Shown here one piece after another: positions 8,779 through 57,334 of a stretch of 64,000 nt of DNA. Position 1 is the stretch's first letter. Each line of letters starts with the position of its first letter. The DNA comes from Tupaia tana (Eukaryota; Chordata; Mammalia; Scandentia; Tupaiidae): contig JAKSZU010000025.1 in assembly GCA_026018925.1 (NCBI GenBank), positions 24,066,891 to 24,130,890 of the forward strand, read 5' to 3'. The position numbers and the translations under genes are program-made. The notes beneath the pieces were generated by a model, which was given only the letters and a program-made list of their open reading frames with translations, was not told where the DNA came from and searched no databases.

Positions 8779-8870
8779 AAACTGTTGGGTCCAGGACTCA
8801 ACTGTGCTGGTCATGTGAGATCCAGCTGCCTTAACTGTCTTGCCACCAGCTGCCATTAACGTTAATTTTT

Positions 8871-9086: not shown

Positions 9087-9141
<55 letters not shown>

Positions 9142-9148: not shown

Positions 9149-9268
9149 TTAGAGTGCAGGCACTCGGTATATATTAAGTGGGGACATACAATGCCTCTCC
9201 TTCACAGCATGGCTTGCTTCACTCAGCAGTAAGTCTTCCATATTCATCCATTTCCTTTCAAAAGCCAG

Positions 9269-9325
<57 letters not shown>

Positions 9326-12988: not shown

Positions 12989-13032
12989 CGTCTTAGTTGC
13001 CTTTTACTCTTTTGTTTCTGGCTGTTACTTCT

Positions 13033-13991
13033 TTAGTTTTCCTGGAATAGTACTTTCTTCAGGGTTTCATGGAGAGCTGGCCTGGTGCTGGCAAATTCTT
13101 TCAGGTTTTGTTTGTCTGAGAAGATTTTAATCTTTTTTTCCCATATGAAGGATAATCTTGCAGGATACAATAATCTTGGTTGAAATTGTTTCTCTCTTAA
13201 CACTTTCAGTACATCTTCCCATTCTTTCCTTGCTTGCATTGTTTTCGTTGAGAAGTCCGGTGTTAGCCTGATGGGGTGACCTTTGTAAGTCACTTGTCGT
13301 TTCTCTCTTGCCAGTTTTAGTATCTTATCTCTCTCTGTGGTCTTAGCCAGTCTGGCTATGATATGCCTTGGGGAAGATCTTCTTGGGTTGATTCTATTTG
13401 GTGTCCTTTGTATTTCTTGGGTCTGGATGTTTGAGTGCCTCTCTATGCTTGGGAATTTTTCTTGCAAGATTTCATGGAATAGGTTTTCCATGCTCTTATT
13501 AGTTTCTTCATCTTCTGGGATACCAATTATTCGGACGTTAGGACGTCTAATGGAATCTAGTAATTCTTGTACGTTATCTTCATGTTTTTTTTTGTTATTT
13601 TCTGTATCTTTTTGGTGGTTTTCTCTAGGTCAGAAGTTTTATCTTCTACATCAGAGATTCGACCTTCAGCATGGTCTAATTGACTTTTAATACTTTCGAG
13701 AGAGTTCTTGATTTCCTGTATTTCAGACTTCACCTCTAATAGTTCTGTCTTATTCTTCCTCAGAATTTCTTCCTTCATATCATTGAAGGACTTTCTCATC
13801 TTCTGTAATTCATTGTCTCTTCTCTGTTCCAGCTCATAGTGCTTGTTCAACATGAATGTTCTAAACTCTATCTTGGACATTTTGGTAACGTCCTCTATTT
13901 TTTCAAGAAAAGGAAGGGAGTTACTGGGTTCCTTTGATGGAGACATATTTCCTGCTTTATTCAGGCCTGAGGTTCTTCTACTTCTAAGCAT
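13033..13991 (-). pseudogene. L1 ORF1 (RNA-binding chaperone), one frameshift
   Basis: ORF1p is the trimeric coiled-coil RNA-binding protein that packages L1 RNA. The start MLRSRRTSGLNKAG at 13,991 is followed by a long charged coiled-coil region (about residues 35-140; LEQRRDNELQKMRKSF, SEIQEIKNSLESIKSQ). After a frameshift come the RRM and C-terminal domains: IIGIPEDEETNKSMENLF, EIQRTPNRINPRRSSPRHII, QARKEWEDVLKVLREK, FQPRLLYPARLSF and STRPALHETLKK. The span is about 320 codons, normal for the family. The single frameshift falls at an A-run at about 13,585-13,594 and could be slippage or a sequencing error. It lies 44 bp upstream of the ORF2 start, as in other bicistronic L1s. Confidence 0.93.
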
Positions 13992-14340
13992 TGGGAAATG
14001 TGTTCCCTTTGAAAAACCTTTTATGAGAACGTTTATTCAAATAGGAGCAAGTGTGTTTCTTTCCGGATGTGGAATGGAGACAGCCAAAGTCTCTCTTCAA
14101 TTGTGTTTAGTAATATAGTCCAAGAAAAAGTATTCTCTTCAGGTGTACAAAGAAATGTATCTCCTTCTTCACAGGTGTTTCAGTAAAATGGAGGATTCTA
14201 GAGAGTCTTAAAATGCTATAATGTTACAGAATTGTAATGCTAGACCTATCTAGATATCCAGGGATGGCGTAGATAAAGTAAGTGAGGACTGAATAAGCGG
14301 GAAGAAAATAAAACGTAGAATAAAGAAAAAATCGCCAGGG
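13992..14340 (-). promoter_or_regulatory. L1 5' UTR tether (unique part)
   Basis: About 350 bp between ORF1 and the tandem array that is not itself repeated. In mouse L1s a comparable non-monomeric tether joins the monomers to ORF1. It changes abruptly to monomer sequence at about 14,338, where 'gggacgaaagatgggagtg' begins. Function is inferred from position only. Confidence 0.75.
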
Positions 14341-17210
14341 ACGAAAGATGGGAGTGTGGTGTGGTAGGATGGAGGGCGATCCTATGAGTTAATCAGAAGA
14401 GAAAAATTAACAAATGAAAGATGTGGGAAAGGGAACAAAAAAAGAAAAAAAAAAGTGTACCTGGCGGAAAGAGGGGTGTCTGGCTTGGGGGTCCCGAGGC
14501 GGAAGCTGCTGGGGACAGTCCTCCCTCGCAGATCCTAGCCCAGGGGTCGAAAGGTAGCAGTGTGGTGTGGTAGGATGGAGGGCGTTCCTGGCTGAAAGAG
14601 GGGTGTCTGGCTTGGGGGTCCCGGGGCGGAAGCTACTGGGGACAGTCCTCCCTCGCAGATCTTGGCACAGGGGTCGAAAGATGGGAGTGTGGTGTGGTAG
14701 GATGGAGGGCATTCCTGGCTGAAACGGGGGTGTCTGGCTTGGGGGTCCCGGTTAATCAGAAGAGAAAAATTTACAAATGAAAGACGTGGGGAAGGGAACA
14801 AAAAAAAGACAAAAAAAAAAAAGTGTATCTGGCAGAAAGAGGGATGTCTGGCTTGGGGGTCCCGGGGCAGAAGCTGCTGGGGACAGTCCTTTCTCCCAGA
14901 TCCGGGCCCAGGTGTCGAAAGATGGGAGTGTGGTGTGGTAGGATGGAGGGCGTTCCTGGCTGAAACAGGGGTGTCTGGCTTGGGGTTCCCGGGGTGGAAG
15001 CTACTGGGGACAGTCCTCCCTCACAGATCCTGGCCCATGGGTGGAAAGATAGGAGTGTGGTGTGGTAGGATGGAGGGCGATCCTATGTGTTAATCAGAAG
15101 AGAAAAATTTACAAATGAAAGAGGTGGGTAAGGTGACAAAAAAGGGAAAAAAAAAAAAAAAAAGAAGAAAATAAAAGCATACCTGGCAGAAAGAGGGGAG
15201 TCTGGCTTGGGGGTCCTGGGGCAGAAGCTACTGGGGACAGTTCTCCCTCACAGATGCTGGCCCAGGGGATGAAAGATGGGAGTGTGGTGTGGTAGGATGG
15301 AGGGCGTTCCCATGTGTTAAACAGAAGAGAAAAATTAACAAATGAAAGACATGGGAAAGGGAACAAAAAAAGAAAAAAAAAAGAAAAAAAAGTGTATCTG
15401 GCAGAAAGAGGGGTGTCTGGTTTGGGGGTCCCGGGGCGGAAGCTACTGGGGACAGTGCTCCCTCGCAGATCCTGGCCCAGGGGTTGAAACGTGGGAGTGT
15501 GGTGTGGTAGGATGGAGGGCATTCCTGGCTGAAACAGGGGTGTCTGGCTTGGGGGTCCCGGTTAATCAGAAGAGAAAAATTTACAAATGAAAGACGTGGG
15601 GAAGGGAACAAAAAAAATGACAAAAAAATAAAAAGAAAGAAAGTGTATCTGGCAGAAAGAGTGGTGTCTGGCTTGGGGGTCCCGGGGCGGAAGCTACTGG
15701 GGACAGTCCTTTCTCCCAGATCCTGGCCCAGGGGTCGAAAGATGGGAGTGTGGTGTGATAGGATGGAGGGCATTCCTGGCTGAAAGAGGAGTGTCTGGCT
15801 TGGGGGTCCCGGGGCGGAAGCTACTGGGGACAGTCCTCCCTCGCAGATCCTGGCCCAGGGGTGGAAAGATGGGAGTGTGGTGTGGTAGGATGGAGGGCGA
15901 TCCTATGTGTTCATCAGAAGAGAAAAATTTACAAATGAAAGACGTGGGTGAGGGGACGAAAAAAAGAAAAAAAGAAGAAAATAAAAGCGTACCTGGCTGA
16001 AAGAAGGGAGTCTGGCTTGGGGGTCCTGGGGCGGAAGCTACTGGGGACAGTCCTCCCTCGCAGATGCTGGCCCAGAGGATGAAAGATGGGAGTGTGGTGT
16101 GGTAGGATGGAGGGCGTTCCTATGTGTTAATCAGAAGAGAAAAATTTACCAATGAAAGACGTGGGAAAGGGAACAAAAAAAGAAAAAAAAAAAAGATAAA
16201 TATATTGTATCTGGCAGAAAGAGGGGTGTCTGGCTTGGGGGTCCCGGGGCGGAAGCTACTGGGGACAGTGCTCCCTCGCAGATCCTGGCCCAGGGGTTGA
16301 AATGTGGGAGTGTGGTGTGGTAGGATGGAGGGCGTTCCTGGCTGAAAGAGGGGTGTCTGGCTTGGGGGTCCAGGAAAGTCAGAAGAGAAAAATTTACAAA
16401 TGAAAAACGTGGGTGAGGGGACAAAAAAAGAAAAAAAGAAAAAAAGAAGAAAATAAAAGCGTACCTGGCTGAAAGAGGGGTGTCTGGCTTGGGGGTCCAG
16501 GAAAGTCAGAAGAGAAAAATTTACAAATGAAAGACGTGGGGAAGGGAACAATAAAAGACAAAAAAAAAAAAAAAAAAAAAAAGGAAAAAAAGTGTATTTG
16601 GCAGAAAGAGGGGTGTCTGGCTTGGGGGTCCCGGAGCGGAAGCTACTGGGGACAGTCCTTTCTCTCAGATCGTGGTCCAGGGGTCGAAAGATACGAGTGT
16701 GGTGTGGTAGGATGGAGGGCGTTCCTGACTGAAAGAGGGGTGTCTGGCTTGGGGTTCCTGGGGCGGAAGCTACTGGGGACAGTCCTCCCTCGCAGATCCT
16801 GGCCCAGGGGTGGAAAGATGGGAGTGTGGTGTGGTAGAATGGAGGGCATTCCTGGCTGAAAGAGGAGTGTCTGGCTTGGGGGTCCTGGGGCGGAAGCTAC
16901 TGGGGACAGTCCTCCCTCGCAGATCCTAGCCCAGGGGTGGAAAGATGGGAGTGTGGTGTGGTAGGATGGAGGGCGATCCTATGTGTTAATCAGAAGAGAA
17001 AAAATTTATAAATGAAAGACGTGGGTGAGGGGACAAAAAAAGAAAAAAAGAAAAAAAGAAGAAAATAAAAGCGTACCTGGCTGAAAGAAGGGAGTCTGGC
17101 TTGGGGGTCCCAGGGCGGAAGCTACTGGGGACAGTCCTCCCTCGCAGATCCTGGCCCAGGGGTGGAAAGATGGGAGTGTGGTGTGGTAGGATGGAGGGCG
17201 ATCCTATGTG
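14341..17210 (-). repeat. ORF1-proximal, less homogenised monomers
   Basis: Monomers nearest the tether differ from each other and from the core more than core copies do, with variants such as 'ggggtggaag', 'tgtggtgtgata' and a spacer ending 'gtgtacctggcgg'. I see no long-range period here. This is the expected pattern for an array whose edges escape homogenisation. Confidence 0.7.
16721..16847 (-). repeat. Example 127-bp G-module
   Basis: One complete module from 'gttcctgactg' to the next 'attcctgg'. It is G-rich on the plus strand, with runs of five, four and four G within the first 60 bp. 127 leaves remainder 1 when divided by 3, so successive modules are read in different frames. Confidence 0.9.
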
Positions 17211-19560
17211 TTAATCAGAAGAGAAAAATTTACAAATGAAAGACGTGGGTGAGGGGACAAAAAAAGAAAAAAAAAAAAAGATAAAAAAATTGTATCTGGC
17301 AGAAAGAGGGGAGTCTGGCTTGGGGGTCCCGGGGCGGAAGCTACTGGGGACAGTGCTCCCTCGCAGATCCTGGCCCAGGGGTTGAAATGTGGGAGTGTGG
17401 TGTGGTAGGATGGAGGGCATTCCTGGCTGAAAGAGGGGTGTCTGGCTTGGGGGTCCTGGGGCGGAAGCTACTGGGGACAGTCCTCCCTCGCAGATCGTGG
17501 CCCAGGGGTCGAAAGATGGGAGTGTGGTGTGGTAGGATGGAGGGCGTTCCTGGCTGAAAGAGGGGTGTCTGGCTTGGGGGTCCAGGAAAGTCAGAAGAGA
17601 AATATTTACAAATGAAAGACGTGGGGAAGGGAACAATAAAAGACAAAAAAAAAAAAAAAAAAAAAAGGAAAAAAAGTGTATCTGGCAGAAAGAGGGGTAT
17701 CTGGCTTGGGGGTCCTGGGGCGGAAGATACTGGGGACAGTGCTCCCTCGCAGATCGTGGCCCAGGGTTTGAAATGTGGGAGTGTGGTGTGGTAGGATGGA
17801 GGTTATTCTTGGCTGAAACAGGGGTGTCTGGCTTGGGGGTCCTGGGGTGGAAGCTACTGGGGACAGTCCTCCCTCGCAGATCCTGGCCCAGGGGTGGAAA
17901 GATGGGAGTGTGGTGTGGTAGGATGGAGGGCGATCCTATGTGTTAATGAGAAGAGAAAAATTTATAAATGAAAGACGTGGGTGAGGGGACAAAAAAAGAA
18001 AAAAAGAAAAAAAGAAGAAAATAAAAGCGTACCGGGCTGAAAGAAGGGAGTCTGGCTTGGGGGTCCCGGGGCGGAAGCAACTGGGGACAGTCCTCCATCG
18101 CAGATCCTGGCCCAGGGGTGGAAAGATGGGAGTGTGGTGTGGTAGGATGGAGGGCGATCCTATGTGTTAATCAGAAGAGAAAAATTTACAAATGAAAGAC
18201 GTGGGTGAGGGGACAAAAAAAGGAAAAAAAAAAGATAAAAAAATTGTATCTGGCAGAAAGAGGGGTGTCTGGCTTGGGGGTCCCGGGGCGGAAGCTACTG
18301 GGGACAGTGCTCCCTCGCAGATCCTGGCCCAGGGGTTGAAATGTAGGAGTGTGGTGTGGTAGGATGGAGGGCATTCCTGGCTGAAACAGGGGTGTCTGGC
18401 TTGGGGGTCCTGGGGCGGAAGCTACTGGGGACAGTCCTCCCTCGCAGATCGTGGCCCAGGGGTCGAAAGATGGGAGTGTGGTGTGGTAGGATGGAGGACG
18501 TTCCTGGCTGAAAGAGGGGTGTCTGGCTTGGGGGTCCAGGAAAGTCAGAAGAGAAAAATTTACAAATGAAAGACGTGGGTGAGGGGACAAAAAAAAAAAA
18601 AAAAAAAAAAAAAGAAGAAGAAAATAAAAGCGTACCTGGCTGAAAGAGGGGAGTCTGGCTTGGGGGTCCTGGGGCGGAAGCTACCGGGGACAGTCCTTTC
18701 TCACAGATGCTGGCCCAGGGGATGAATGATGGGAGTGTGGTGTGGTAGGATGGAGGGCGTTCCCACGTGTTAATCAGAAGAGAAAAATTTACAAATGAAA
18801 GACGTGGGAAAGGGAACAAAAAAAGAAAAAAAAAGTGTATCTGGCAGAAAGTGGGGTGTCTGGTTTGGGGGTCCTGGGGCGGAAGCTACTGGGGACAGTG
18901 CTCCCTCGCAGATCCTGGCCCAGGGGTTGAAACGTGGGAGTGTGGTGTGGTAGGATGGAGGGCGTTCCTGGCTGAAACAGGGGTGTCTGGCTTGGGGGTC
19001 CAGGTTAATCAGAAGAGAAAAATTTACAAATGAAAGACATGGGTGAGGGGACAAAAAAAGAAAAAAAGAAAAAAAGAAGAAAATAAAAGCGTACCTGGCT
19101 GAAAGAAGGGAGTCTGGCTTGGGGGTCCTGGGGCGGAAGCTACTGGGGACAGTCCTCCCTCACAGATGCTGGCCCAGAGGATGAAAGATGGGAGTGTGGT
19201 GTGGTAGGATGGAGGACGTTCCTATGTGTTAATCAGAAGAGAAGAATTTACCAATGAAAGACGTGGGAAAGGGAACAAAAAAAGAAAAAAAAAAGATAAA
19301 AAAATTGTATTTGGCAGCAAGAGGGGTGTCTGGCTTGGGGGTCCCGGGGCGGAAGCTACTGGGGACAGTGCTCCCTCGCAGATCCTGGCCCAGGGGTTGA
19401 AATGTGGGAGTGTGGTGTGGTAGGATGGAGGGCGTTCCTGGCTGAAAGAGGGGTGTCTGGCTTGGGGGTCCTGGGGCGGAGGCTACTGGGGACAGTCCTC
19501 CCTCGCAGATCGTGGCCCAGGGGTTGAAAGATGGGAGTGTGGTGAGGTAGGATGGAGGGC
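17211..19560 (-). repeat. Block repeated about 3.9 kb further on
   Basis: The variant order at 17,211-18,590 recurs at 21,130-22,270 (offset about 3.9 kb), and 18,770-19,480 recurs at 22,535-23,250 (offset 3,765). The difference in offset means one or more units were lost or gained between them. This is an older tandem duplication, one copy of which became part of the 6.86-kb unit. Confidence 0.7.
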
Positions 19561-19564
19561 GTTC

Positions 19565-22500
19565 CTGGCTGAAACAGGGGTGTCTGGCTTGGGGGTCCTG
19601 GGGCGGAAGCTACTGGGGACAGTCCTCCCTCGCAGATCGTGGCCCAGGGGTCGAAAGATGGGAGTGTGGTGTGGTAGGATGGAGGACGTTCCTGGCTGAA
19701 AGAGGGGTGTCTGGCTTGGGGGTCCAGGAAAGTCAGAAGAGAAAAATTTACAAATGAAAGACGTGGGTGAGGGGACCAAAAAAAAAAAAAAAAAAAAAAA
19801 AAAAGAAGAAGAAAATAAAAGCGTACCTGGCTGAAAGAGGGGAGTCTGGCTTGGGGGTCCTGGGGCAGAAGCTACTGGGGACAGTCCTTTCTCACAGATG
19901 CTGGCCCAGGGGATGAATGATGGGAGTGTGGTGTGGTAGGATGGAGGGCGTTCCCACGTGTTAATCAGAAGAGAAAAATTTACAAATGAAAGACGTGGGA
20001 AAGGGAACAAAAAAAGAAAAAAAAAGTGTATCTGGCAGAAAGTGGGGTGTCTGGTTTGGGGGTCGTGGGGCGGAAGCTACTGGGGACAGTGCTCCCTCGC
20101 AGATCCTGGCCCAGGGGTTGAAACGTGGGAGTGTGGTGTGGTAGGATGGAGGGCGTTCCTGGCTGAAACAGGGGTGTCTGGCTTGGGGGTCCCGGTTAAT
20201 CAGAAGAGAAAAATTTACAAATGAAAGACATGGGTGAGGGGACAAAAAAAGAAAAAAAGAAAAAAAGAAGAAAATAAAAGCGTACCTGGCTGAAAGAAGG
20301 GAGTCTGGCTTGGGGGTCCTGGGGCGGAAGCTACTGGGGACAGTCCTCCCTCACAGATGCTGGCCCAGAGGATGAAAGATGGGAGTGTGGTGTGGTAGGA
20401 TGGAGGACGTTCCTATGTGTTAATCAGAAGAGAAAAATTTACCAATGAAAGACGTGGGAAAGGGAACAAAAAAAGAAAAAAAAAAAGATAAAAAAATTGT
20501 ATCTGGCAGCAAGAGGGGTGTCTGGCTTGGGGGTCCCGGGGCGGAAGCTACTGGGGACAGTGCTCCCTCGCAGATCCTGGCCCAGGGGTTGAAATGTGGG
20601 AGTGTGGTGTGGTAGTATGGAGGGCATTCTTGGCTGAAACAGGGGTGTCTGGCTTGGGGGTCCTGGGGCGGAAGCTACTGGGGACAGTCCTCCCTCACAG
20701 ATGCTGGCCCAGAGGATGAAAGATGGGAGTGTGGTGTGGTAGGATGGAGGACGTTCCTATGTGTTAATCAGAAGAGAAAAATTTACCAATGAAAGACGTG
20801 GGAAAGGGAACAAAAAAAGAAAAAAAAAAAAAAGATAAAAAAATTGTATCTGGCAGAAAGAGGGGTGTCTGGCTTGGGGGTCCCGGGGCGGAAGCTACTG
20901 GGGACAGTGCTCCCTCGCAGATCCTGGCCCAGGGGTTGAAATGTGGGAGTGTGGTGTGGTAGGATGGAGGGCGTTCCTGGCTGAAAGAGGGGTGTCTGGC
21001 TTGGGGGTCCTGGGGCGGAAGCTACTGGGGACAGTCCTCCCTCGCAGATCCTGGCCCAGGGGTGGAAAGATGGGAGTGTGGTGTGGTAGGATGGAGGGCG
21101 ATCCTATGTGTTAATCAGAAGAGAAAAATTTACAAATGAGAGACGTGGGTGAGGGGACAAAAAAAGAGAAAAAAAAAGATAAAAAAATTGTATCTGGCAG
21201 AAAGAGGGGTGTCTGGCTTGGGGGTCCCGGGGCCGAAGCTACTGGGGACAGTGCTCCCTCGCAGATCCTGGCCCAGGGGTTGAAATGTGGGAGTGTGGTG
21301 TGGTAGGATGGAGGGCATTCCTGGCTGAAAGAGGGGTGTCTGGCTTGGGGGTCCTGGGGCGGAAGCTACTGGGGACAGTCCTCCCTCGCAGATCGTGGCC
21401 CAGGGGTCGAAAGATGGGAGTGTGGTGTGGTAGGATGGAGGGCGTTCCTGGCTGAAAGAGGGGTGTCTGGCTTGGGGGTCCAGGAAAGTCAGAAGAGAAA
21501 TATTTACAAATGAAAGACGTGGGGAAGGGAACAATAAAAGACAAAAAAAAAAAAAAAAAAAAAGGAAAAAAAGTGTATCTGGCAGAAAGAGGGGTATCTG
21601 GCTTGGGGGTCCTGGGGCGGAAGATACTGGGGACAGTGCTCCCTCGCAGATCCTGGCCCAGGGGTTGAAATGTGGGAGTGTGGTGTGGTAGGATGGAGGG
21701 CATTCTTGGCTGAAACAGGGGTGTCTGGCTTGGGGGTCCTGGGGCGGCAGCTACTGGGGACAGTCCTCCCTCGCAGATCCTGGCCCAGGGGTGGAAAGAT
21801 GGGAGTGTGGTGTGGTAGGATGGAGGGCGATCCTATGTGTTAATGAGAAGAGAAAAATTTATAAATGAAAGACGTGGGTGAGGGGACAAAAAAAGAAAAA
21901 AAGAAAAAAAGAAGAAAATAAAAGCGTACCTGGCTGAAAGAAGGGAGTCTGGCTTGGGGGTCCCGGGGCGGAAGCAACTGGGGACAGTCCTCCATCGCAG
22001 ATCCTGGCCCAGGGGTGGAAAGATGGGAGTGTGGTGTGGTAGGATGGAGGGCGATCCTATGTGTTAATCAGAAGAGAAAAATTTACAAATGAAAGACGTG
22101 GGTGAGGGGACAAAAAAAGGAAAAAAAAAAGATAAAAAAATTGTATCTGGCAGAAAGAGGGGTGTCTGGCTTGGGGGTCCCGGGGCGGAAGCTACTGGGG
22201 ACAGTGCTCCCTCGCAGATCCTGGCCCAGGGGTTGAAATGTGGGAGTGTGGTGTGGTAGGATGGAGGGCATTCCTGGCTGAAACAGGGGTGTCTGGCTTG
22301 GGGGTCCTGGGGCGGAAGCTACTGGGGACAGTCCTCCCTCGCAGATCGTGGCCCAGGGGTCGAAAGATGGGAGTGTGGTGTGGTAGGATGGAGGACGTTC
22401 CTGGCTGAAAGAGGGGAGTCTGGCTTGGGGGTCCTGGGGCAGAAGCTACTGGGGACAGTCCTTTCTCACAGATGCTGGCCCAGGGGATGAATGATGGGAG

Positions 22501-25500
22501 TGTGGTGTGGTAGGATGGAGGGCGTTCCCACGTGTTAATCAGAAGAGAAAAATTTACAAATGAAAGACGTGGGAAAGGGAACAAAAAAAGAAAAAAAAAG
22601 TGTATCTGGCAGAAAGTGGGGTGTCTGGTTTGGGGGTCCTGGGGCGGAAGCTACTGGGGACAGTGCTCCCTCGCAGATCCTGGCCCAGGGGTTGAAACGT
22701 GGGAGTGTGGTGTGGTAGGATGGAGGGCGTTCCTGGCTGAAACAGGGGTGTCTGGCTTGGGGGTCCAGGTTAATCAGAAGAGAAAAATTTACAAATGAAA
22801 GACATGGGTGAGGGGACAAAAAAAGAAAAAAAGAAAAAAAGAAGAAAATAAAAGCGTACCTGGCTGAAAGAAGGGAGTCTGGCTTGGGGGTCCTGGGGCG
22901 GAAGCTACTGGGGACAGTCCTCCCTCACAGATGCTGGCCCAGAGGATGAAAGATGGGAGTGTGGTGTGGTAGGATGGAGGACGTTCCTATGTGTTAATCA
23001 GAAGAGAAGAATTTACCAATGAAAGACGTGGGAAAGGGAACAAAAAAAGAAAAAAAAAAGATAAAAAAATTGTATCTGGCAGCAAGAGGGGTGTCTGGCT
23101 TGGGGGTCCTGGGGCGGAAGCTACTGGGGACAGTGCTCCCTCGCAGATCCTGGCCCAGGGGTTGAAATGTGGGAGTGTGGTTTGGTAGGATGGAGGGCGT
23201 TCCTGGCTGAAAGAGGGGTGTCTGGCTTGGGGGTCCTGGGGCGGAGGCTACTGGGGACAGTCCTCCCTCGCAGATCGTGGCCCAGGGGTTGAAAGATGGG
23301 AGTGTGGTGTGGTAGGATGGAGGGCGTTCCTGGCTGAAAGAGGGGTGTCTGGCTTGGGGGTCCAGGAAAGTCAGAAGAGAAAAATTTACAAATGAAAGAC
23401 GTGGGTGAGGGGACAAAAAAAGAAAAAGAAAAAAAAAAAGGAAAAAAAGTGTATCTGGCAGAAAGAGGGGTGTCTGGCTTGGAGGTCCCGGAGCGGAAGC
23501 TACTGGGGACAGTCCTTTCTCTCAGATCGTGGTCAAGGGGTCAGAAGATAGGAGTGTGGTGTGGTAGGATGGAGGGCGTTCCTGACTGAAAGAGGGGTGT
23601 CTGGCTTGGGGGTCCTGGGGCGGAAGCTACTGGGGACAGTCCTCCCTCGTAGATCCTGGCCCAGGGGTGGAAAGATGGGAGTGTGGTGTGGTAGGATGGA
23701 GGGCGATCCTATGTGTTAATCAGAAGAGAAAAATTTACAAATGAGAGACGTGGGTGAGGGGACAAAAAAAGAGAAAAAAAAAGAGAAAAAAATTGTATCT
23801 GGCAGAAAGAGGGGTGTCTGGCTTGGGGGTCCCGGGGCGGAAGCTACTGGGGACAGTGCTCCCTCGCAGATCCTGGCCCAGGGGTTGAAATGTGGGAGTG
23901 TGGTGTGGTAGGATGGAGGGCATTCCTGGCAGAAAGAGGGGTGTCTGGCTTGGGGGTCCTGGGGCGGAAGCTACTGGGGACAGTGCTCCCTCACAGATCC
24001 TGGCCCAGGGGTCCAAAGATGGGAGTGTGGTGTGGTAGGATGGAGGGCGTTCCTGGCTGAAAGAAGGGTGTCTGGCTTGGGGGTCCAGGAAAGTCAGAAG
24101 AGAAAAATTTACAAATGAAAGACGTGGGGAAGGGAACAATAAAAGACAAAAAAAAAAAAAAAAAAAAAAGGAAAAAAAGTGTATCTGGCAGAAAGAGGGG
24201 TATCTGGCTTGGGGGTCCTGGGGCGGAAGATACTGGGGACAGTTCTCCCTCGCAGATCCTGGCCCAGGGGTTGAAATGTGGGAGTGTGGTGTGGTAGGAT
24301 GGAGGGCATTCTTGGCTGAAACAGGGGTGTCTGGCTTGGGGGTCCTGGGGCGGAAGCTACTGGGGACAGTCCTCCCTCGCAGATCCTGGCCCAGGGGTGG
24401 AAAGATGGGAGTGTGGTGTGGTAGGATGGAGGGCGATCCTATGTGTTAATGAGAAGAGAAAAATTTATAAATGAAAGACGTGGGTGAGGAGACAAAAAAA
24501 GAAAAAAAGAAAAAAAGAAGAAAATAAAAGCGTACCTGGCTGAAAGAAGGGAGTCTGGCTTGGGGGTCCTGGGGCGGAAGCTACTGGGGACAGTCCTCCC
24601 TCACAGATGCTGGCCCAGAGGATGAAAGATGGGAGTGTGGTGTGGTAGGATGGAGGGCGTTCCTATGTGTTAATCAGAAGAGAAAAATTTACCAATGAAA
24701 GACGTGGGAAAGGGAACAAAAAAAGAAAAAAAAAAAGATAAAAAAATTGTATCTGGCAGAAAGAGGGGTGTCTGGCTTGGGGGTCCAGGAAAGTCAGAAG
24801 AGAAAAATTTATAAATGAAAGACGTGGGTGAGGGGACAAAAAAAGAAAAAGAAAAAAAAAAAGGAAAAAAAGTGTATCTGGCAGAAAGAGGGGTGTCTGG
24901 CTTGGGGGTCCCGGAGCGGAAGCTACTGGGGACAGTCCTTTCTCTCAGATCGTGGTCAAGGGGTCAGAAGATAGGAGTGTGGTGTGGTAGGATGGAGGGC
25001 GTTCCTGACTGAAAGAGGGGTGTCTGGCTTGGGGGTCCTGGGGCGGAAGCTACTGGGGACAGTCCTCCCTCGCAGATCCTGGCCCGGGGGTGGAAAGATG
25101 GGAGTGTGTTGTGGTAGGATGGAGGGCGATCCTATGTGTTAATCAGAAGAGAAAAATTTACAAATGAGAGACGTGGGTGAGGGGACAAAAAAAGAGAAAA
25201 AAAAAGAGAAAAAAATTGTATCTGGCAGAAAGAGGGGTGTCTGGCTTGGGGGTCCCGGGGCGGAAGCTACTGGGGACAGTGCTCCCTCGCAGATCCTGGC
25301 CCAGGGGTTGAAATGTGGGAGTGTGGTGTGGTAGGATGGAGGGCATTCCTGGCAGAAAGAGGGGTGTCTGGCTTGGGGGTCCTGGGGCGGAAGCTACTGG
25401 GGACAGTGCTCCCTCACAGATCCTGGCCCAGGGGTCCAAAGATGGGAGTGTGGTGTGGTAGGATGGAGGGCGTTCCTGGCTGAAAGAAGGGTGTCTGGCT

Positions 25501-28500
25501 TGGGGGTCCAGGAAAGTCAGAAGAGAAAAATTTACAAATGAAAGACGTGGGGAAGGGAACAATAAAAGACAAAAAAAAAAAAAAAAAAAAAGGAAAAAAA
25601 GTGTATCTGGCAGAAAGAGGGGTATCTGGCTTGGGGGTCCTGGGGCGGAAGATACTGGGGACAGTGCTCCCTCGCAGATCCTGGCCCAGGGGTTGAAATG
25701 TGGGAGTGTGGTGTGGTAGGATGGAGGGCATTCTTGGCTGAAACAGGGGTGTCTGGCTTGGGGGTCCTGGGGCGGCAGCTACTGGGGACAGTCCTCCCTC
25801 GCAGATCGTGGCCCAGGGGTGGAAAGATGGGAGTGTGGTGTGGTAGGATGGAGGGCATTCCTGGCTGAAAGAGGAGTGTCTGGCTTGGGGGTCCTGGGGC
25901 GGAAGCTACTGAGGACAGTCCTCCCTCGCATATCCTGGCCCAGGGGTGGAAAGATGGGAGTGTGGTGTGGTAGGATGGAGGGCGATCCTATGTGTTAATG
26001 AGAAGAGAAAAATTTGTAAATGAAAGACGTGGGTGAGGGGACAAAAAAAGAAAAAAAGAAAAAAAGAAGAAAATAAAAGCGTACCTGGCTGAAAGAAGGG
26101 AGTCTGGCTTGGGGGTCCCGGGGCGGAAGCTACTGGGGACAGTCCTCCCTCGCAGATCCTGGCCCAGGGGTGGAAAGATGGGAGTGTGGTGTGGTAGGAT
26201 GGAGGGCGATCCTATGTGTTAATCAGAAGAGAAAAATTTACAAATGAAAGACGTTGGTGAGGGGACAAAAAAAGAAAAAAAAAAAAGATAAAAAAATTGT
26301 ATCTGGCAGAAAGAGGGGAGTCTGGCTTGGGGGTCCCGGGGCGGAAGCTACTGGGGACAGTGCTCCCTCGCAGATCCTGGCCCAGGGGTTGAAATGTGGG
26401 AGTGTGGTGTGGTAGGATGGAGGGCATTCCTGGCTGAAACAGGGGTGTCTGGCTTGGGGGTCCAGGGGCGGAAGCTACTGGGGACAGTCCTCCCTCGCAG
26501 ATCGTGGCCCAGGGGTCGAAAGATGGGAGTGTGGTGTGGTAGGATGGAGGACGTTCCTGGCTGAAAGAGGGGTGTCTGGCTTGGGGGTCCAGGAAAGTCA
26601 GAAGAGAAAAATTTACAAATGAAAGACGTGGGTGAGGGGACAAAAAAAAAAAAAAAAAAAAAAAAGAAGAAGAAAATAAAAGCGTACCTGGCTGAAAGAG
26701 GGGAGTCTGGCTTGGGGGTCCTGGGGCGGAAGCTACCGGGGACAGTCCTTTCTCACAGATGCTGGCCCAGGGGATGAATGATGGGAGTGTGGTGTGGTAG
26801 GATGGAGGGCGTTCCCACGTGTTAATCAGAAGAGAAAAATTTACAAATGAAAGACGTGGGAAAGGGAACAAAAAAAGAAAAAAAAAGTGTATCTGGCAGA
26901 AAGTGGGGTGTCTGGTTTGGGGGTCCTGGGGCGGAAGCTACTGGGGACAGTGCTCCCTCGCAGATCCTGGCCCAGGGGTTGAAACGTGGGAGTGTGGTGT
27001 GGTAGGATGGAGGGCGTTCCTGGCTGAAACAGGGGTGTCTGGCTTGGGGGTCCCGGTTAATCAGAAGAGAAAAATTTACAAATGAAAGACATGGGTGAGG
27101 GGACAAAAAAAGAAAAAAAGAAAAAAAGAAGAAAATAAAAGCGTACCTGGCTGAAAGAAGGGAGTCTGGCTTGGGGGTCCTGGGGCGGAAGCTACTGGGG
27201 ACAGTCCTCCCTCACAGATGCTGGCCCAGAGGATGAAAGATGGGAGTGTGGTGTGGTAGGATGGAGGACGTTCCTATGTGTTAATCAGAAGAGAAAAATT
27301 TACCAATGAAAGACGTGGGAAAGGGAACAAAAAAAGAAAAAAAAAAAGATAAAAAAATTGTATCTGGCAGCAAGAGGGGTGTCTGGCTTGGGGGTCCCGG
27401 GGCGGAAGCTACTGGGGACAGTGCTCCCTCGCAGATCCTGGCCCAGGGGTTGAAATGTGGGAGTGTGGTGTGGTAGTATGGAGGGCATTCTTGGCTGAAA
27501 CAGGGGTGTCTGGCTTGGGGGTCCTGGGGCGGAAGCTACTGGGGACAGTCCTCCCTCACAGATGCTGGCCCAGAGGATGAAAGATGGGAGTGTGGTGTGG
27601 TAGGATGGAGGACGTTCCTATGTGTTAATCAGAAGAGAAAAATTTACCAATGAAAGACGTGGGAAAGGGAACAAAAAAAGAAAAAAAAAAAAAAGATAAA
27701 AAAATTGTATCTGGCAGAAAGAGGGGTGTCTGGCTTGGGGGTCCCGGGGCGGAAGCTACTGGGGACAGTGCTCCCTCGCAGATCCTGGCCCAGGGGTTGA
27801 AATGTGGGAGTGTGGTGTGGTAGGATGGAGGGCGTTCCTGGCTGAAAGAGGGGTGTCTGGCTTGGGGGTCCTGGGGCGGAAGCTACTGGGGACAGTCCTC
27901 CCTCGCAGATCCTGGCCCAGGGGTGGAAAGATGGGAGTGTGGTGTGGTAGGATGGAGGGCGATCCTATGTGTTAATCAGAAGAGAAAAATTTACAAATGA
28001 GAGACGTGGGTGAGGGGACAAAAAAAGAGAAAAAAAAAGATAAAAAAATTGTATCTGGCAGAAAGAGGGGTGTCTGGCTTGGGGGTCCCGGGGCCGAAGC
28101 TACTGGGGACAGTGCTCCCTCGCAGATCCTGGCCCAGGGGTTGAAATGTGGGAGTGTGGTGTGGTAGGATGGAGGGCATTCCTGGCTGAAAGAGGGGTGT
28201 CTGGCTTGGGGGTCCTGGGGCGGAAGCTACTGGGGACAGTCCTCCCTCGCAGATCGTGGCCCAGGGGTCGAAAGATGGGAGTGTGGTGTGGTAGGATGGA
28301 GGGCGTTCCTGGCTGAAAGAGGGGTGTCTGGCTTGGGGGTCCAGGAAAGTCAGAAGAGAAATATTTACAAATGAAAGACGTGGGGAAGGGAACAATAAAA
28401 GACAAAAAAAAAAAAAAAAAAAAGGAAAAAAAGTGTATCTGGCAGAAAGAGGGGTATCTGGCTTGGGGGTCCTGGGGCGGAAGATACTGGGGACAGTGCT

Positions 28501-31500
28501 CCCTCGCAGATCCTGGCCCAGGGGTTGAAATGTGGGAGTGTGGTGTGGTAGGATGGAGGGCATTCTTGGCTGAAACAGGGGTGTCTGGCTTGGGGGTCCT
28601 GGGGCGGCAGCTACTGGGGACAGTCCTCCCTCGCAGATCCTGGCCCAGGGGTGGAAAGATGGGAGTGTGGTGTGGTAGGATGGAGGGCGATCCTATGTGT
28701 TAATGAGAAGAGAAAAATTTATAAATGAAAGACGTGGGTGAGGGGACAAAAAAAGAAAAAAAGAAAAAAAGAAGAAAATAAAAGCGTACCTGGCTGAAAG
28801 AAGGGAGTCTGGCTTGGGGGTCCCGGGGCGGAAGCAACTGGGGACAGTCCTCCATCGCAGATCCTGGCCCAGGGGTGGAAAGATGGGAGTGTGGTGTGGT
28901 AGGATGGAGGGCGATCCTATGTGTTAATCAGAAGAGAAAAATTTACAAATGAAAGACGTGGGTGAGGGGACAAAAAAAGGAAAAAAAAAAGATAAAAAAA
29001 TTGTATCTGGCAGAAAGAGGGGTGTCTGGCTTGGGGGTCCCGGGGCGGAAGCTACTGGGGACAGTGCTCCCTCGCAGATCCTGGCCCAGGGGTTGAAATG
29101 TGGGAGTGTGGTGTGGTAGGATGGAGGGCATTCCTGGCTGAAACAGGGGTGTCTGGCTTGGGGGTCCTGGGGCGGAAGCTACTGGGGACAGTCCTCCCTC
29201 GCAGATCGTGGCCCAGGGGTCGAAAGATGGGAGTGTGGTGTGGTAGGATGGAGGACGTTCCTGGCTGAAAGAGGGGAGTCTGGCTTGGGGGTCCTGGGGC
29301 AGAAGCTACTGGGGACAGTCCTTTCTCACAGATGCTGGCCCAGGGGATGAATGATGGGAGTGTGGTGTGGTAGGATGGAGGGCGTTCCCACGTGTTAATC
29401 AGAAGAGAAAAATTTACAAATGAAAGACGTGGGAAAGGGAACAAAAAAAGAAAAAAAAAGTGTATCTGGCAGAAAGTGGGGTGTCTGGTTTGGGGGTCCT
29501 GGGGCGGAAGCTACTGGGGACAGTGCTCCCTCGCAGATCCTGGCCCAGGGGTTGAAACGTGGGAGTGTGGTGTGGTAGGATGGAGGGCGTTCCTGGCTGA
29601 AACAGGGGTGTCTGGCTTGGGGGTCCAGGTTAATCAGAAGAGAAAAATTTACAAATGAAAGACATGGGTGAGGGGACAAAAAAAGAAAAAAAGAAAAAAA
29701 GAAGAAAATAAAAGCGTACCTGGCTGAAAGAAGGGAGTCTGGCTTGGGGGTCCTGGGGCGGAAGCTACTGGGGACAGTCCTCCCTCACAGATGCTGGCCC
29801 AGAGGATGAAAGATGGGAGTGTGGTGTGGTAGGATGGAGGACGTTCCTATGTGTTAATCAGAAGAGAAGAATTTACCAATGAAAGACGTGGGAAAGGGAA
29901 CAAAAAAAGAAAAAAAAAAGATAAAAAAATTGTATCTGGCAGCAAGAGGGGTGTCTGGCTTGGGGGTCCTGGGGCGGAAGCTACTGGGGACAGTGCTCCC
30001 TCGCAGATCCTGGCCCAGGGGTTGAAATGTGGGAGTGTGGTTTGGTAGGATGGAGGGCGTTCCTGGCTGAAAGAGGGGTGTCTGGCTTGGGGGTCCTGGG
30101 GCGGAGGCTACTGGGGACAGTCCTCCCTCGCAGATCGTGGCCCAGGGGTTGAAAGATGGGAGTGTGGTGTGGTAGGATGGAGGGCGTTCCTGGCTGAAAG
30201 AGGGGTGTCTGGCTTGGGGGTCCAGGAAAGTCAGAAGAGAAAAATTTACAAATGAAAGACGTGGGTGAGGGGACAAAAAAAGAAAAAGAAAAAAAAAAAG
30301 GAAAAAAAGTGTATCTGGCAGAAAGAGGGGTGTCTGGCTTGGAGGTCCCGGAGCGGAAGCTACTGGGGACAGTCCTTTCTCTCAGATCGTGGTCAAGGGG
30401 TCAGAAGATAGGAGTGTGGTGTGGTAGGATGGAGGGCGTTCCTGACTGAAAGAGGGGTGTCTGGCTTGGGGGTCCTGGGGCGGAAGCTACTGGGGACAGT
30501 CCTCCCTCGTAGATCCTGGCCCAGGGGTGGAAAGATGGGAGTGTGGTGTGGTAGGATGGAGGGCGATCCTATGTGTTAATCAGAAGAGAAAAATTTACAA
30601 ATGAGAGACGTGGGTGAGGGGACAAAAAAAAGAGAAAAAAAAAGAGAAAAAAATTGTATCTGGCAGAAAGAGGGGTGTCTGGCTTGGGGGTCCCGGGGCG
30701 GAAGCTACTGGGGACAGTGCTCCCTCGCAGATCCTGGCCCAGGGGTTGAAATGTGGGAGTGTGGTGTGGTAGGATGGAGGGCATTCCTGGCAGAAAGAGG
30801 GGTGTCTGGCTTGGGGGTCCTGGGGCGGAAGCTACTGGGGACAGTGCTCCCTCACAGATCCTGGCCCAGGGGTCCAAAGATGGGAGTGTGGTGTGGTAGG
30901 ATGGAGGGCGTTCCTGGCTGAAAGAAGGGTGTCTGGCTTGGGGGTCCAGGAAAGTCAGAAGAGAAAAATTTACAAATGAAAGACGTGGGGAAGGGAACAA
31001 TAAAAGACAAAAAAAAAAAAAAAAAAAAAAGGAAAAAAAGTGTATCTGGCAGAAAGAGGGGTATCTGGCTTGGGGGTCCTGGGGCGGAAGATACTGGGGA
31101 CAGTTCTCCCTCGCAGATCCTGGCCCAGGGGTTGAAATGTGGGAGTGTGGTGTGGTAGGATGGAGGGCATTCTTGGCTGAAACAGGGGTGTCTGGCTTGG
31201 GGGTCCTGGGGCGGAAGCTACTGGGGACAGTCCTCCCTCGCAGATCCTGGCCCAGGGGTGGAAAGATGGGAGTGTGGTGTGGTAGGATGGAGGGCGATCC
31301 TATGTGTTAATGAGAAGAGAAAAATTTATAAATGAAAGACGTGGGTGAGGAGACAAAAAAAGAAAAAAAGAAAAAAAGAAGAAAATAAAAGCGTACCTGG
31401 CTGAAAGAAGGGAGTCTGGCTTGGGGGTCCTGGGGCGGAAGCTACTGGGGACAGTCCTCCCTCACAGATGCTGGCCCAGAGGATGAAAGATGGGAGTGTG

Positions 31501-34230
31501 GTGTGGTAGGATGGAGGGCGTTCCTATGTGTTAATCAGAAGAGAAAAATTTACCAATGAAAGACGTGGGAAAGGGAACAAAAAAAGAAAAAAAAAAAGAT
31601 AAAAAAATTGTATCTGGCAGAAAGAGGGGTGTCTGGCTTGGGGGTCCAGGAAAGTCAGAAGAGAAAAATTTATAAATGAAAGACGTGGGTGAGGGGACAA
31701 AAAAAGAAAAAGAAAAAAAAAAAGGAAAAAAAGTGTATCTGGCAGAAAGAGGGGTGTCTGGCTTGGGGGTCCCGGAGCGGAAGCTACTGGGGACAGTCCT
31801 TTCTCTCAGATCGTGGTCAAGGGGTCAGAAGATAGGAGTGTGGTGTGGTAGGATGGAGGGCGTTCCTGACTGAAAGAGGGGTGTCTGGCTTGGGGGGTCC
31901 TGGGGCGGAAGCTACTGGGGACAGTCCTCCCTCGCAGATCCTGGCCCGGGGGGTGGAAAGATGGGAGTGTGTTGTGGTAGGATGGAGGGCGATCCTATGT
32001 GTTAATCAGAAGAGAAAAATTTACAAATGAGAGACGTGGGTGAGGGGACAAAAAAAGAGAAAAAAAAAGAGAAAAAAATTGTATCTGGCAGAAAGAGGGG
32101 TGTCTGGCTTGGGGGTCCCGGGGCGGAAGCTACTGGGGACAGTGCTCCCTCGCAGATCCTGGCCCAGGGGTTGAAATGTGGGAGTGTGGTGTGGTAGGAT
32201 GGAGGGCATTCCTGGCAGAAAGAGGGGTGTCTGGCTTGGGGGTCCTGGGGCGGAAGCTACTGGGGACAGTGCTCCCTCACAGATCCTGGCCCAGGGGTCC
32301 AAAGATGGGAGTGTGGTGTGGTAGGATGGAGGGCGTTCCTGGCTGAAAGAAGGGTGTCTGGCTTGGGGGTCCAGGAAAGTCAGAAGAGAAAAATTTACAA
32401 ATGAAAGACGTGGGGAAGGGAACAATAAAAGACAAAAAAAAAAAAAAAAAAAAGGAAAAAAAGTGTATCTGGCAGAAAGAGGGGTATCTGGCTTGGGGGT
32501 CCTGGGGCGGAAGATACTGGGGACAGTGCTCCCTCGCAGATCCTGGCCCAGGGGTTGAAATGTGGGAGTGTGGTGTGGTAGGATGGAGGGCATTCTTGGC
32601 TGAAACAGGGGTGTCTGGCTTGGGGGTCCTGGGGCGGCAGCTACTGGGGACAGTCCTCCCTCGCAGATCGTGGCCCAGGGGTGGAAAGATGGGAGTGTGG
32701 TGTGGTAGGATGGAGGGCATTCCTGGCTGAAAGAGGAGTGTCTGGCTTGGGGGTCCTGGGGCGGAAGCTACTGAGGACAGTCCTCCCTCGCATATCCTGG
32801 CCCAGGGGTGGAAAGATGGGAGTGTGGTGTGGTAGGATGGAGGGCGATCCTATGTGTTAATGAGAAGAGAAAAATTTGTAAATGAAAGACGTGGGTGAGG
32901 GGACAAAAAAAGAAAAAAAGAAAAAAAGAAGAAAATAAAAGCGTACCTGGCTGAAAGAAGGGAGTCTGGCTTGGGGGTCCCGGGGCGGAAGCTACTGGGG
33001 ACAGTCCTCCCTCGCAGATCCTGGCCCAGGGGTGGAAAGATGGGAGTGTGGTGTGGTAGGATGGAGGGCGATCCTATGTGTTAATCAGAAGAGAAAAATT
33101 TACAAATGAAAGACGTTGGTGAGGGGACAAAAAAAGAAAAAAAAAAAAGATAAAAAAATTGTATCTGGCAGAAAGAGGGGAGTCTGGCTTGGGGGTCCCG
33201 GGGCGGAAGCTACTGGGGACAGTGCTCCCTCGCAGATCCTGGCCCAGGGGTTGAAATGTGGGAGTGTGGTGTGGTAGGATGGAGGGCATTCCTGGCTGAA
33301 ACAGGGGTGTCTGGCTTGGGGGTCCAGGGGCGGAAGCTACTGGGGACAGTCCTCCCTCGCAGATCGTGGCCCAGGGGTCGAAAGATGGGAGTGTGGTGTG
33401 GTAGGATGGAGGACGTTCCTGGCTGAAAGAGGGGTGTCTGGCTTGGGGGTCCAGGAAAGTCAGAAGAGAAAAATTTACAAATGAAAGACGTGGGTGAGGG
33501 GACAAAAAAAAAAAAAAAAAAAAAAAAGAAGAAGAAAATAAAAGCGTACCTGGCTGAAAGAGGGGAGTCTGGCTTGGGGGTCCTGGGGCGGAAGCTACCG
33601 GGGACAGTCCTTTCTCACAGATGCTGGCCCAGGGGATGAATGATGGGAGTGTGGTGTGGTAGGATGGAGGGCGTTCCCACGTGTTAATCAGAAGAGAAAA
33701 ATTTACAAATGAAAGACGTGGGAAAGGGAACAAAAAAAGAAAAAAAAAGTGTATCTGGCAGAAAGTGGGGTGTCTGGTTTGGGGGTCCTGGGGCGGAAGC
33801 TACTGGGGACAGTGCTCCCTCGCAGATCCTGGCCCAGGGGTTGAAACGTGGGAGTGTGGTGTGGTAGGATGGAGGGCGTTCCTGGCTGAAACAGGGGTGT
33901 CTGGCTTGGGGGTCCCGGTTAATCAGAAGAGAAAAATTTACAAATGAAAGACATGGGTGAGGGGACAAAAAAAGAAAAAAAGAAAAAAAGAAGAAAATAA
34001 AAGCGTACCTGGCTGAAAGAAGGGAGTCTGGCTTGGGGGTCCTGGGGCGGAAGCTACTGGGGACAGTCCTCCCTCACAGATGCTGGCCCAGAGGATGAAA
34101 GATGGGAGTGTGGTGTGGTAGGATGGAGGACGTTCCTATGTGTTAATCAGAAGAGAAAAATTTACCAATGAAAGACGTGGGAAAGGGAACAAAAAAAGAA
34201 AAAAAAAAAGATAAAAAAATTGTATCTGGC
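19565..34230 (-). repeat. 6.86-kb higher-order repeat, about 2.1 copies
   Basis: The same ordered set of variant monomers recurs with offset 6,861 (19,961 to 26,822; 23,392 to 30,252; 24,815 to 31,676) and again 6,862 (26,822 to 33,684). Copy 1 is about 19,565-26,425, copy 2 about 26,426-33,287, and a partial copy 3 runs to about 34,230. The match fades left of 19,565 ('gtggtgaggtagg' differs) and right of 34,230 ('ggcagaaag' against 'ggcagcaag'). Copies are nearly identical, including odd variants such as 'ggtttggtagg' at 23,180 and 30,040. Smaller duplications sit inside, for example 23,392-24,139 against 24,815-25,562 (offset 1,423). Confidence 0.85.
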
Positions 34231-36472
34231 AGAAAGAGGGGTGTCTGGCTTGGGGGTCCCGGGGCGGAAGCTACTGGGGACAGTGCTCCCTCGCAGATCC
34301 TGGCCCAGGGGTTGAAATGTGGGAGTGTGGTGTGGTAGGATGGAGGGCATTCTTGGCTGAAACAGGGGTGTCTGGCTTGGGGGTCCTGGGGCGGAAGCTA
34401 CTGGGGACATTCCTCCCTCGCAGATCGTGGCCCAGGGGTTGAAAGATGGGAGTGTGGTGTGGTAGGATGGAGGGCGTTCCTGGCTGAAAGAGGGGTGTCT
34501 GGCTTGGGGGTCCAGGAAAGTCAGAAGAGAAAAATTTACAAATGAAAGACGTGGGTGAGGGGACAAAAAAAGAAAAAGAAAAAAAAAAAGGAAAAAAAGT
34601 GTATCTGGCAGAAAGAGGGGTGTCTGGCTTGGGGGTCCCGGAGCGGAAGCTACTGGGGACAGTCCTTTCTCTCAGATCGTGGTCAAGGGGTCAGAAGATA
34701 GGAGTGTGGTGTGGTAGGATGGAGGGCGTTCCTGACTGAAAGAGGGGTGTCTGGCTTGGGGGTCCTGGGGCGGAAGCTACTGGGGACAGTCCTCCCTCGC
34801 AGATCCTGGCCCAGGGGTGGAAAGATGGGAGTGTGTTGTGGTAGGATGGAGGGCGATCCTATGTGTTAATCAGAAGAGAAAAATTTACAAATGAGAGACG
34901 TGGGTTAGGGGACAAAAAAAGAGAAAAAAAAAGAGAAAAAAATTGTATCTGGCAGAAAGAGGGGTGTCTGGCTTGGGGGTCCCGGGGCGGAAGCTACTGG
35001 GGACAGTGCTCCCTCGCAGATCCTGGCCCAGGGGTTGAAATGTGGGAGTGTGGTGTGGTAGGATGGAGGGCATTCCTGGCTGAAATAGGGGTGTCTGGCT
35101 TGGGGGTCCTGGGGCGGAAGCTACTGGGGACATTCCTCCCTCGCAGATCGTGGCCCAGGGGTCGAAAGATGGGAGTGTGGTGTGGTAGGATGGAGGGCGT
35201 TCCTGGCTGAAAGAAGGGTGTCTGGCTTGGGGGTCCAGGAAAGTCAGAAGAGAAAAATTTACAAATGAAAGACGTGGGGAAGGGAACAATAAAAGACAAA
35301 AAAAAAAAAAAAAAGGAAAAAAAGTGTATCTGGCAGAAAGAGGGGTGTCTGGCTTGGGGGTCCCGGGGCGGAAGCTACTGGGGACAGTCCTTTCTCTCAG
35401 ATCGTGGTCAAGGGGTCAGAATATAGGAGTGCGGTGTGGTAGGATGGAGGGCGTTCCTGACTGAAAGAGGGGTGTCTTGCTTGGGGTTCCTGGGGCGGAA
35501 GCTACTGGGGACAGTCCTCCCTTGCAGATCCTGGCCCAGGGGTGGAAAGATGGAAGTGTGGTGTGGTAGGATGGAGGGCGATCCTATGTGTTAATCAGAA
35601 GAGAAAAATTTACAAATGAAAGAGGTGGGTGAGGGGACAAAAAAAGAAAAGAAGAAAATAAAAGCGTTCCTGGCTGAAAGAGGGGTGTCTGGCTTGGGGA
35701 TCCAGGAAAGTCAGAAGAGAAAAATTTACAAATGAAAGACGTGGGGAAGGGAACAATAAAAGACAAAAAAAATAAAAAAAAAAGGAAAAAAAGTGTATCT
35801 GGCAGAAAGAGTGGTGTCTGGCTTGGGTGTCCCGGGGCGGAAGCTACTGGGGACAGTCCTTTCTCTCAGATCGTGGTCCAGGGGTCGAAAGATAGGAGTG
35901 TGGTGTGGTAGGATGGAGGGCGTTCCTGACTGAAAGAGGGGTGTCTGGCTTGGGGGTCCTGGGGCGGAAGCTACTGGCAACAGTCCTCCCTCGCAGATCC
36001 TGGCCCAGGGGTGGAAAGATGGGAGTGTGGTGTGGTAGGATGGAGGGTGATCCTATGTGTTAATCAGAAGAGAAAAATTTACAAATGAAAGACATGGGTA
36101 AGGTGACAAAAAAGGAAAAAAAAGAAAAAAAAGAAGAAAATACAAGTGTACCTGGCAGAAAGAGGGGAGTCTGGTTTGGGGGTCCCGGGGCGGAAGCTAC
36201 TGGGGACAGTCCTCCCTCACAGATGCTGGCCCAGGGGATGAAAGATGGGAGTGTGGTGTGGTAGGATGGAGGACTTTTCTATGCGTTAATCAGAAGAGAA
36301 AAATTTACAAATGAAAGACGTGGGTGAGGGGACAAAAAAAGAAAAAGAAAAAGAAAAAGAAAGCGTACCTGGCTGAAAGAGGGGTGTCTGGCTTGGGGGT
36401 CCTTGGGTGGAAGGTACTGGGGACAGTCCTCCCTCGCAGATCCTGGCCCAGGGGTCGAAAGTTGGTAGTATC
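34231..36472 (-). repeat. Distal (5'-most) monomers
   Basis: After the partial third higher-order copy, 34,430-35,300 follows the order of 23,280-24,140, then monomers become more diverged ('gcggtgtggtagg', 'ctactggcaacag', 'gggagggtgatcc'). The array ends within a G-module near 36,472, after 'ggtcgaaagttggtagtat'. In L1 sense this is the outer 5' end. Confidence 0.75.
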
Positions 36473-36488: not shown

Positions 36489-36645
36489 ATTAACGTTTTT
36501 CGTCCTCAGTACAACGAAGGAAGATGAGGCACAGAGTGGTTGAATAACTTACCCAACGTTGCACAGTTAAAAAGTCTTAGTACCAGGCTTAGGACTGTGG
36601 AAGTTTAGCTTCAAAGTCCAAACCCAAATTCACTGCACAATATTT
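36489..36645 (-). repeat. MIR, right half of the split copy
   Basis: Plus-strand order 'attaacgttttt', 'tcctcagtacaacg', 'gatgaggcacagagtgg', 'aataacttacccaacg', 'cacagtta' and 'ttcactgcacaatatt' continues the complement of MIR ('attaactcatttaatcctca...gatgaggcacagagag...') from exactly where the copy at 7,948-8,036 stopped. Confidence 0.85.
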
Positions 36646-39598: not shown

Positions 39599-39866
39599 CG
39601 GGAACCAGCAGTTAGCGTAATGTCTATGTCTCTGGACTCCCACGTAGTCGACCGCGGTTCGTGTCCCGGACCCGGTGGCTTAAAACTCACGCCGGGCACG
39701 TGTGCGTGCGTGCCCAAGATCCCAAGAGGAGAATGGAGGAGAAGGGATTGCGGCGTGACCATCCCCCCTGGGGGGTGATTTCTCGCTTTCTGTCTCTCTG
39801 TCTCTCTCTGTCTGTCTGGCGAGCGCACGCGCCCTATAGCGAAAAACCTCTCCAAAAAAAAAAAAA
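39599..39866 (+). mobile_element. Young CpG-rich family-A tRNA SINE
   Basis: Near-intact copy with A box 'tagcgtaatgt', B box 'ggttcgtgtccc', body 'gagaggagaatggaggag', tail 'gcgccctatagcgaaaaacc' and A-run. It is flanked by a perfect 12-bp duplication, 'aaaagccttccc', at 39,587 and about 39,866. Retained CpGs and the perfect duplication mark it as recent. Confidence 0.93.

Positions 39867-57270: not shown

Positions 57271-57334
<64 letters not shown>

Follow-up and report, generated by a model that had tools for sequence, protein, structure and literature searches.

A now-dead LINE-1 of Tupaia tana with a probable 5' UTR monomer array, amplified into a 22-kb satellite-like array

We analysed a 64,000-nucleotide stretch of the genome of Tupaia tana (contig JAKSZU010000025.1, forward-strand positions 24,066,891 to 24,130,890; hereafter the window, numbered from its first letter), which holds a long interspersed nuclear element 1 (LINE-1, L1) on the minus strand. 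The place of the promoter region of this L1 is taken by a tandem array of 22,129 bp, in the same orientation as the element and about four times the length of the rest of it, in agreement with the ratio given by an earlier, sequence-only reading. The array probably represents the 5' untranslated region (UTR) monomer array of an L1 that is now dead, amplified into a satellite of locus size. As in the mouse L1 subfamilies L1Md A, Gf and Tf, tandem monomers are followed by a non-monomeric tether and then by open reading frame 1 (ORF1), all on the same strand, which bears out the mouse-like architecture proposed in that reading. The two parts upstream of ORF1 are as follows:

14343 to 36471, minus strand: monomer array, with 113 full G modules (127 bp), 28 truncated G heads, 73 A-rich linkers and a partial module at each end
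13992 to 14342, minus strand: tether, 351 bp (396 bp with an ORF1 start at 13946), non-monomeric, 36% GC, between the array and ORF1

The sequence-only reading had placed the array at 14341 to 36472, beginning about 350 bp upstream of ORF1, and had estimated 110 to 120 modules with no foreign sequence between them; its limits lie within a few bases of those of the G homology, and the tether length and module count given above agree with it. Landmark counts over the array amount to 114 G middles, 142 G heads, 114 G tails and 73 A-rich linkers, and no foreign insertion was found in it, the largest gap between consecutive landmarks (65 bp) being the A-rich tract of a linker. The proposed 127-bp module is real, but it is only part of the unit, A-rich linkers and truncated heads making up the remainder. 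Rather than a pure 127-bp repeat, the array has as its basic unit a linker followed by one to three Gs, with 72-99 bp from the start of a linker to the next G head and, from landmark spacings, about 217-227 bp for the simplest unit of a linker and one G. The GC-rich G modules account by simple arithmetic for roughly 65% of the array (about 14.4 kb for the 113 full copies). Among the 74 inter-linker segments, 21 hold one G, 18 two Gs, 15 two Gs and a head, and eight one G and a head, the rest consisting of three Gs (five segments), a head alone (four), three Gs and a head (one) or an end fragment (two). A coding function was rejected for the array: the long minus-strand open reading frames inside it are of low complexity, and the 127-bp period does not keep the frame. 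The GC skew is strong all along 14343-36471 (0.39-0.45 per 2 kb), the G-rich strand being antisense to the L1. On this antisense (plus) strand AATAAA occurs 34 times, against 12.6 expected under a first-order model and in copies that are not independent of one another, while the L1 sense strand of the array has none (0.2 expected); transcripts antisense to the L1 would thus meet many possible poly(A) signals in the array.

Consensus and divergences were derived from 112 of the 113 full G modules, one (119 bp instead of 117) being left out. These modules differ by 7.3% on average and comprise 56 distinct sequences. In groups of six counted from the tether, modules differ from their closest counterpart by 4.0, 2.1 and 1.1% on average, then by 0.0-0.4%, and at the 5' end by 1.1 and 3.2% (last ten modules); the array is a near-identical core with diverged edges. 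Head-to-tail duplications are found at lags of 1188 bp (1.19 kb; 2.1% substitutions), 1423 bp (1.42 kb; 0.8%) and about 6862 bp, and the stretch from about 19.4 to 34.5 kb shows a higher-order period of about 6.86 kb. The alignment at the longest lag spans 8.18 kb at 99.6% identity (0.3% substitutions) and includes older flanking similarity, all 23 of its substitutions falling outside 20066-27370. The core of the duplication (20066-27370 against 26927-34232, 7.3 kb) has no substitutions and five length differences, all in runs of A or G. The limits of the two copies, worked out from the listed gaps, are:

20066 to 26926, minus strand: 6.86-kb tandem duplication, copy 1
26927 to 33788, minus strand: 6.86-kb tandem duplication, copy 2

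This duplication is either very recent or a duplication of the assembly. If real, it has a divergence with a 95% bound of about 0.02% per lineage, and it is younger than the stop codons of the L1 described below. With one 6.86-kb copy taken out, the array measures 15,267 bp and holds 77 full G modules and 51 linkers. Counting all pairs that are at least 97.5% identical as later copies leaves a founding array of about 8.7-9.6 kb, which becomes 14.0 kb at a cut-off of 99.5% and 5.4-7.0 kb at 95.5%. A long head-to-tail array, a homogenised core and higher-order repeats, which are among the traits of a satellite, are all present, the largest duplication among them being one that may be an artefact; the satellite character surmised from the sequence alone holds for the structure. 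The adjacent duplications of 1.2, 1.4 and 6.9 kb, together with the pattern of core and edges, suggest that exchange between units at the genomic level was a main step. The duplication mechanism of L1 monomers, termed unclear by Zhou and Smith (PMC6454616; this and the other papers are cited here from the available parts of their text), can be read at the DNA level in the present array.

Whether the array belongs to the L1 can be judged from its ends and from the flanks of the combined unit, for which the relevant features are:

36457 to 36471, minus strand: 5' end of the array at the phase of a YY1-like CCATCTT, G-module consensus 83-97, in a diverged copy
36489 to 36497, no strand assigned: ATTAACGTT, candidate target-site duplication on the 5' side of the array, 17 bp past the last monomer homology
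8855 to 8863, no strand assigned: ATTAACGTT, candidate target-site duplication on the 3' side of the L1, 2 bp before the poly-T

Next to the tether, homology to the G module starts at 14343, which corresponds to position 83 of the G-module consensus. At the far end, the 25 bases that finish at 36461 (position 87) differ from the consensus at a single base, and the 10 bases after them, to 36471 (position 97), match it at 7. Both ends therefore lie near the same module phase, beside CCATCTT (consensus positions 85-91, minus strand). A single 230-bp module query run across the window returned no monomers outside the L1-array unit, the matches there being A-rich or chance matches of 18-19 bp. Comparison of the L1 3' end (8835-8905) with the joint between tether and array (14325-14385) gave no direct repeat of at least 6 bp. 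Most likely the array belongs to the L1, and a single insertion of both is favoured, because the end phases agree, no monomer is found outside the unit and the one candidate direct repeat (9 bp), itself weak, surrounds L1 and array together rather than the L1 alone. In the mouse, L1s of the T and G types tend to have their 5' ends close to the YY1 site GCCATCTT, and where an insert is complete, its 5' end corresponds to the point at which transcription of its parent started (PMC6454616, PMC9022269). The same trait is seen here at one locus, with CCATCTT a match in sequence only, and its natural reading suggests that the 5' end of the array would be the start of the founding L1 transcript at a YY1-like site.

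The remaining parts of the element show its condition:

13036 to 13991, minus strand: L1 ORF1 (L1 RRM-like and dsRBD-like domains), with one frame shift near 13600 and a start at 13991 or 13946
9247 to 13003, minus strand: L1 ORF2 (endonuclease, reverse transcriptase, C-terminal part), with five frame shifts and two in-frame stops, its pieces matching human ORF2p (solved structures)
8866 to 9246, minus strand: L1 3' end, a short A-rich tail (T on the plus strand) and 3' UTR, from reading the sequence, limits by eye

The ORF1 domains are recognised by Pfam (PF02994, E 2.9e-25; PF17490, E 2.7e-24), and the ORF2 pieces align with human ORF2p or the L1 endonuclease chain over residues 3-41, 45-131, 137-343, 393-605, 698-848 and 933-1237. 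In the endonuclease, one piece stops at human residue 41 and the next starts at 45 with no DNA between them, so that the missing block includes Glu-43, which we take to be catalytic; a second loss of the same kind falls between residues 131 and 137. Given the two in-frame stops, the six frame breaks (one in ORF1, five in ORF2) and the lost endonuclease block, this L1 copy is dead, broken as a gene, and the array is therefore not now the promoter of an active L1. Judged by eye, about three of these frame breaks lie at homopolymers and are possible consensus errors, the remaining breaks being elsewhere; for this reason only the two stops were used as a clock, and they put the substitutions in the ORFs at about 1.1% (95% range 0.14-4.0%). 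A run of 52 T on the plus strand (A on the L1 sense strand) at 9271-9322 lies inside C-terminal ORF2 codons and reads as lysines after YYSSI, as an expanded homopolymer or a consensus error. Protein searches with one piece of each frame gave P0001 as the best among the matches listed for ORF1 (best 120 of 1367; 77% over 82% of the query) and P0121 as the best among those listed for ORF2 (best 120 of 8000; 73% over 79% of the query); they lie on contigs of 576 and 1158 bp, neither of which yields a 5' UTR.

In the model that we favour, the founding L1 would have inserted from an RNA begun at the YY1-like site in a monomer, and would already have carried a multi-unit array at that time, of about 8.7-9.6 kb if the pairs at or above 97.5% identity arose later. 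The array may then have been lengthened in place, by steps of about 1.2, 1.4 and finally 6.9 kb, as its near-identical units underwent unequal exchange or replication slippage, and because the coding part is broken this growth would have gone on without selection through L1 activity. The monomers would originally have served as a tandem internal promoter, and their present role at the locus is most probably none, or that of satellite-type heterochromatin.

Several observations weigh against this model. The phases of the two array ends agree to within 4-14 bp of 127, which by our estimate chance would produce roughly once in 5 to 15 cases, and the 9-bp direct repeat is equalled or exceeded in length in 31 of 5000 random 60-bp windows (16 of 2000 are equal or better under a looser score) and is separated from the last monomer by 17 bp. 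Of the 112 aligned G modules, 60 keep CCATCTT intact (42 of 77 when the large duplication is counted once), and four of the 15 columns conserved in less than 90% of the modules lie in or beside it, which speaks against strong promoter constraint. The observed/expected ratio of CpG is low in the array, at 0.39; the flank has 0.30 and the L1 body 0.29, and a CpG-island promoter was rejected on the values for array and flank. The differences within the last duplication are confined to homopolymers, as in assembly or consensus errors, the duplications at 0.8-2.6% may date back to the insertion itself, and the array may be peculiar to the present locus, the one locus of this L1 family that was observed.

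That the array is real but shorter, the assembly having duplicated 6.86 kb or more so that the 22-kb size is partly artefact, is possible although we hold it to be somewhat doubtful, a grading that applies to the artefact alone and overlaps with the model of in-place growth. Five differences over 7.3 kb, all in homopolymers and none a substitution, are what such an error would leave, but the other duplications do differ by substitutions, and the array left would still run to 15.3 kb and 77 full G modules; this alternative alters the size of the array and not its kind. We think it unlikely that the whole array was copied, near its present length, in one retrotransposition from a parent L1 with a giant promoter, a 27-kb L1 RNA being fully reverse transcribed. 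An array that ends near one phase, as from one transcript start, and the candidate 9-bp repeat outside it fit such a copy, as does the mean G difference of 7.3%, which exceeds the estimated age of the copy and would place a diverse array before the insertion. The substitution-free core of the 6.86-kb duplication, however, is far younger than the ORF stops if it is real, collapsing the pairs of at least 97.5% identity leaves 8.7-9.6 kb, and the two full-length insertions of recent date quoted for the mouse have 5.7 and 7.5 monomers (PMC9022269).

An unrelated local satellite, with a 5'-truncated L1 inserted beside it or into its edge, appears highly improbable to us. That monomer and tether are known together from one locus speaks for an adjacent satellite; it is disfavoured because both array ends lie near the same module phase next to the YY1-like site, no satellite or monomer is found on the other side of the L1, and no direct repeat of at least 6 bp surrounds the L1 alone, and the order of monomer, tether and ORF1 as in the mouse also speaks against it. 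Insertion of the L1 into a pre-existing satellite was rejected, there being no satellite on its far side and no direct repeat.

Satellite DNA with higher-order repeats, such as alpha satellite and the like, consists of head-to-tail units with a near-identical core, diverged edges and long-period duplications. The present array shares these traits but differs from alpha-type satellites in being one interspersed locus fused to a mobile element, and in measuring 22 kb and not megabases. Satellites that arose from transposable elements are known, part of the element having become a tandem array (PMC6947457, PMC9659126, PMC10702118); here, the part in question is the internal promoter region of an L1, which, by analogy with the mouse, would have been tandem before it was amplified. 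Compared with the mouse, in which monomers measure 197-208 bp (type A) and up to 214 bp (PMC6454616), the linker-and-G unit of about 217-227 bp is of similar length, but it is bipartite, an A-rich linker being joined to a 127-bp G that is often reiterated, and the array is marked by higher-order duplications and low CpG. In the mouse survey PMC9022269, the youngest subfamilies average more than three monomers (3-4) and only seven loci exceed ten, as against 113 full modules here, or 77 without one copy of the large duplication. The array is thus far longer than the mouse promoter arrays described in the available parts of PMC6454616 and PMC9022269, the latter of which, citing a review, gives the mouse the highest monomer number among vertebrates. 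The same paper names the L1 5' UTRs of rat, hyrax, horse, elephant and opossum as monomeric, and those of perissodactyls measure 305-2855 bp, with tandem repeats in two types (PMC5872511), in contrast to 22 kb here. According to PMC6454616, the mouse is the only case in which the repeats are close to the 5' end of the element; the present repeats share that position. No longer L1 5' UTR array is found in the available parts of PMC10620060 and PMC13174262, and no comparable L1 monomer array or L1-derived satellite was recognised among the titles and abstract openings listed, a set that leaves subscription journals mostly uncovered. Within the parts of the literature available, the architecture is known, and what is new is its size, the two-part composition of the unit and an amplification that is higher-order and satellite-like.

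A wider reading, which we regard as speculative and rather unlikely, would make a mammalian lineage with a tandem L1 promoter a generator of satellites, its insertions seeding arrays of tens to more than 100 units across the genome, with more than 100 head-to-tail transcription starts per locus, and these arrays later expanding by unequal exchange independently of L1 activity. If this were true, a continuous path would lead from a mobile promoter to satellite DNA. Should sister loci agree with the present one, satellite DNA would be seen to arise from a mobile promoter, and the question whether additional promoters benefit the element or just pile up after its death would become testable.

Exact monomer and linker patterns gave no matches in IMG/VR and GTDB contigs, which cover viruses and prokaryotes and carry no evidence on mammals. 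At the 3' side of the L1, nested short interspersed nuclear elements (SINEs) occupy 8260-8866, one copy lying at 8480-8727; the 5' end of one SINE seems, by eye, to abut the candidate target-site duplication, and the neighbouring SINEs complicate this side. A tRNA-like SINE family, assigned by eye, has many copies in the window and is probably young, as the pair at 39601-39860 and 6636-6894 is 95.4% identical. Finally, a microsatellite of the hexamer AGAGAA lies at 57275-57444, with 28 copies at 98%.

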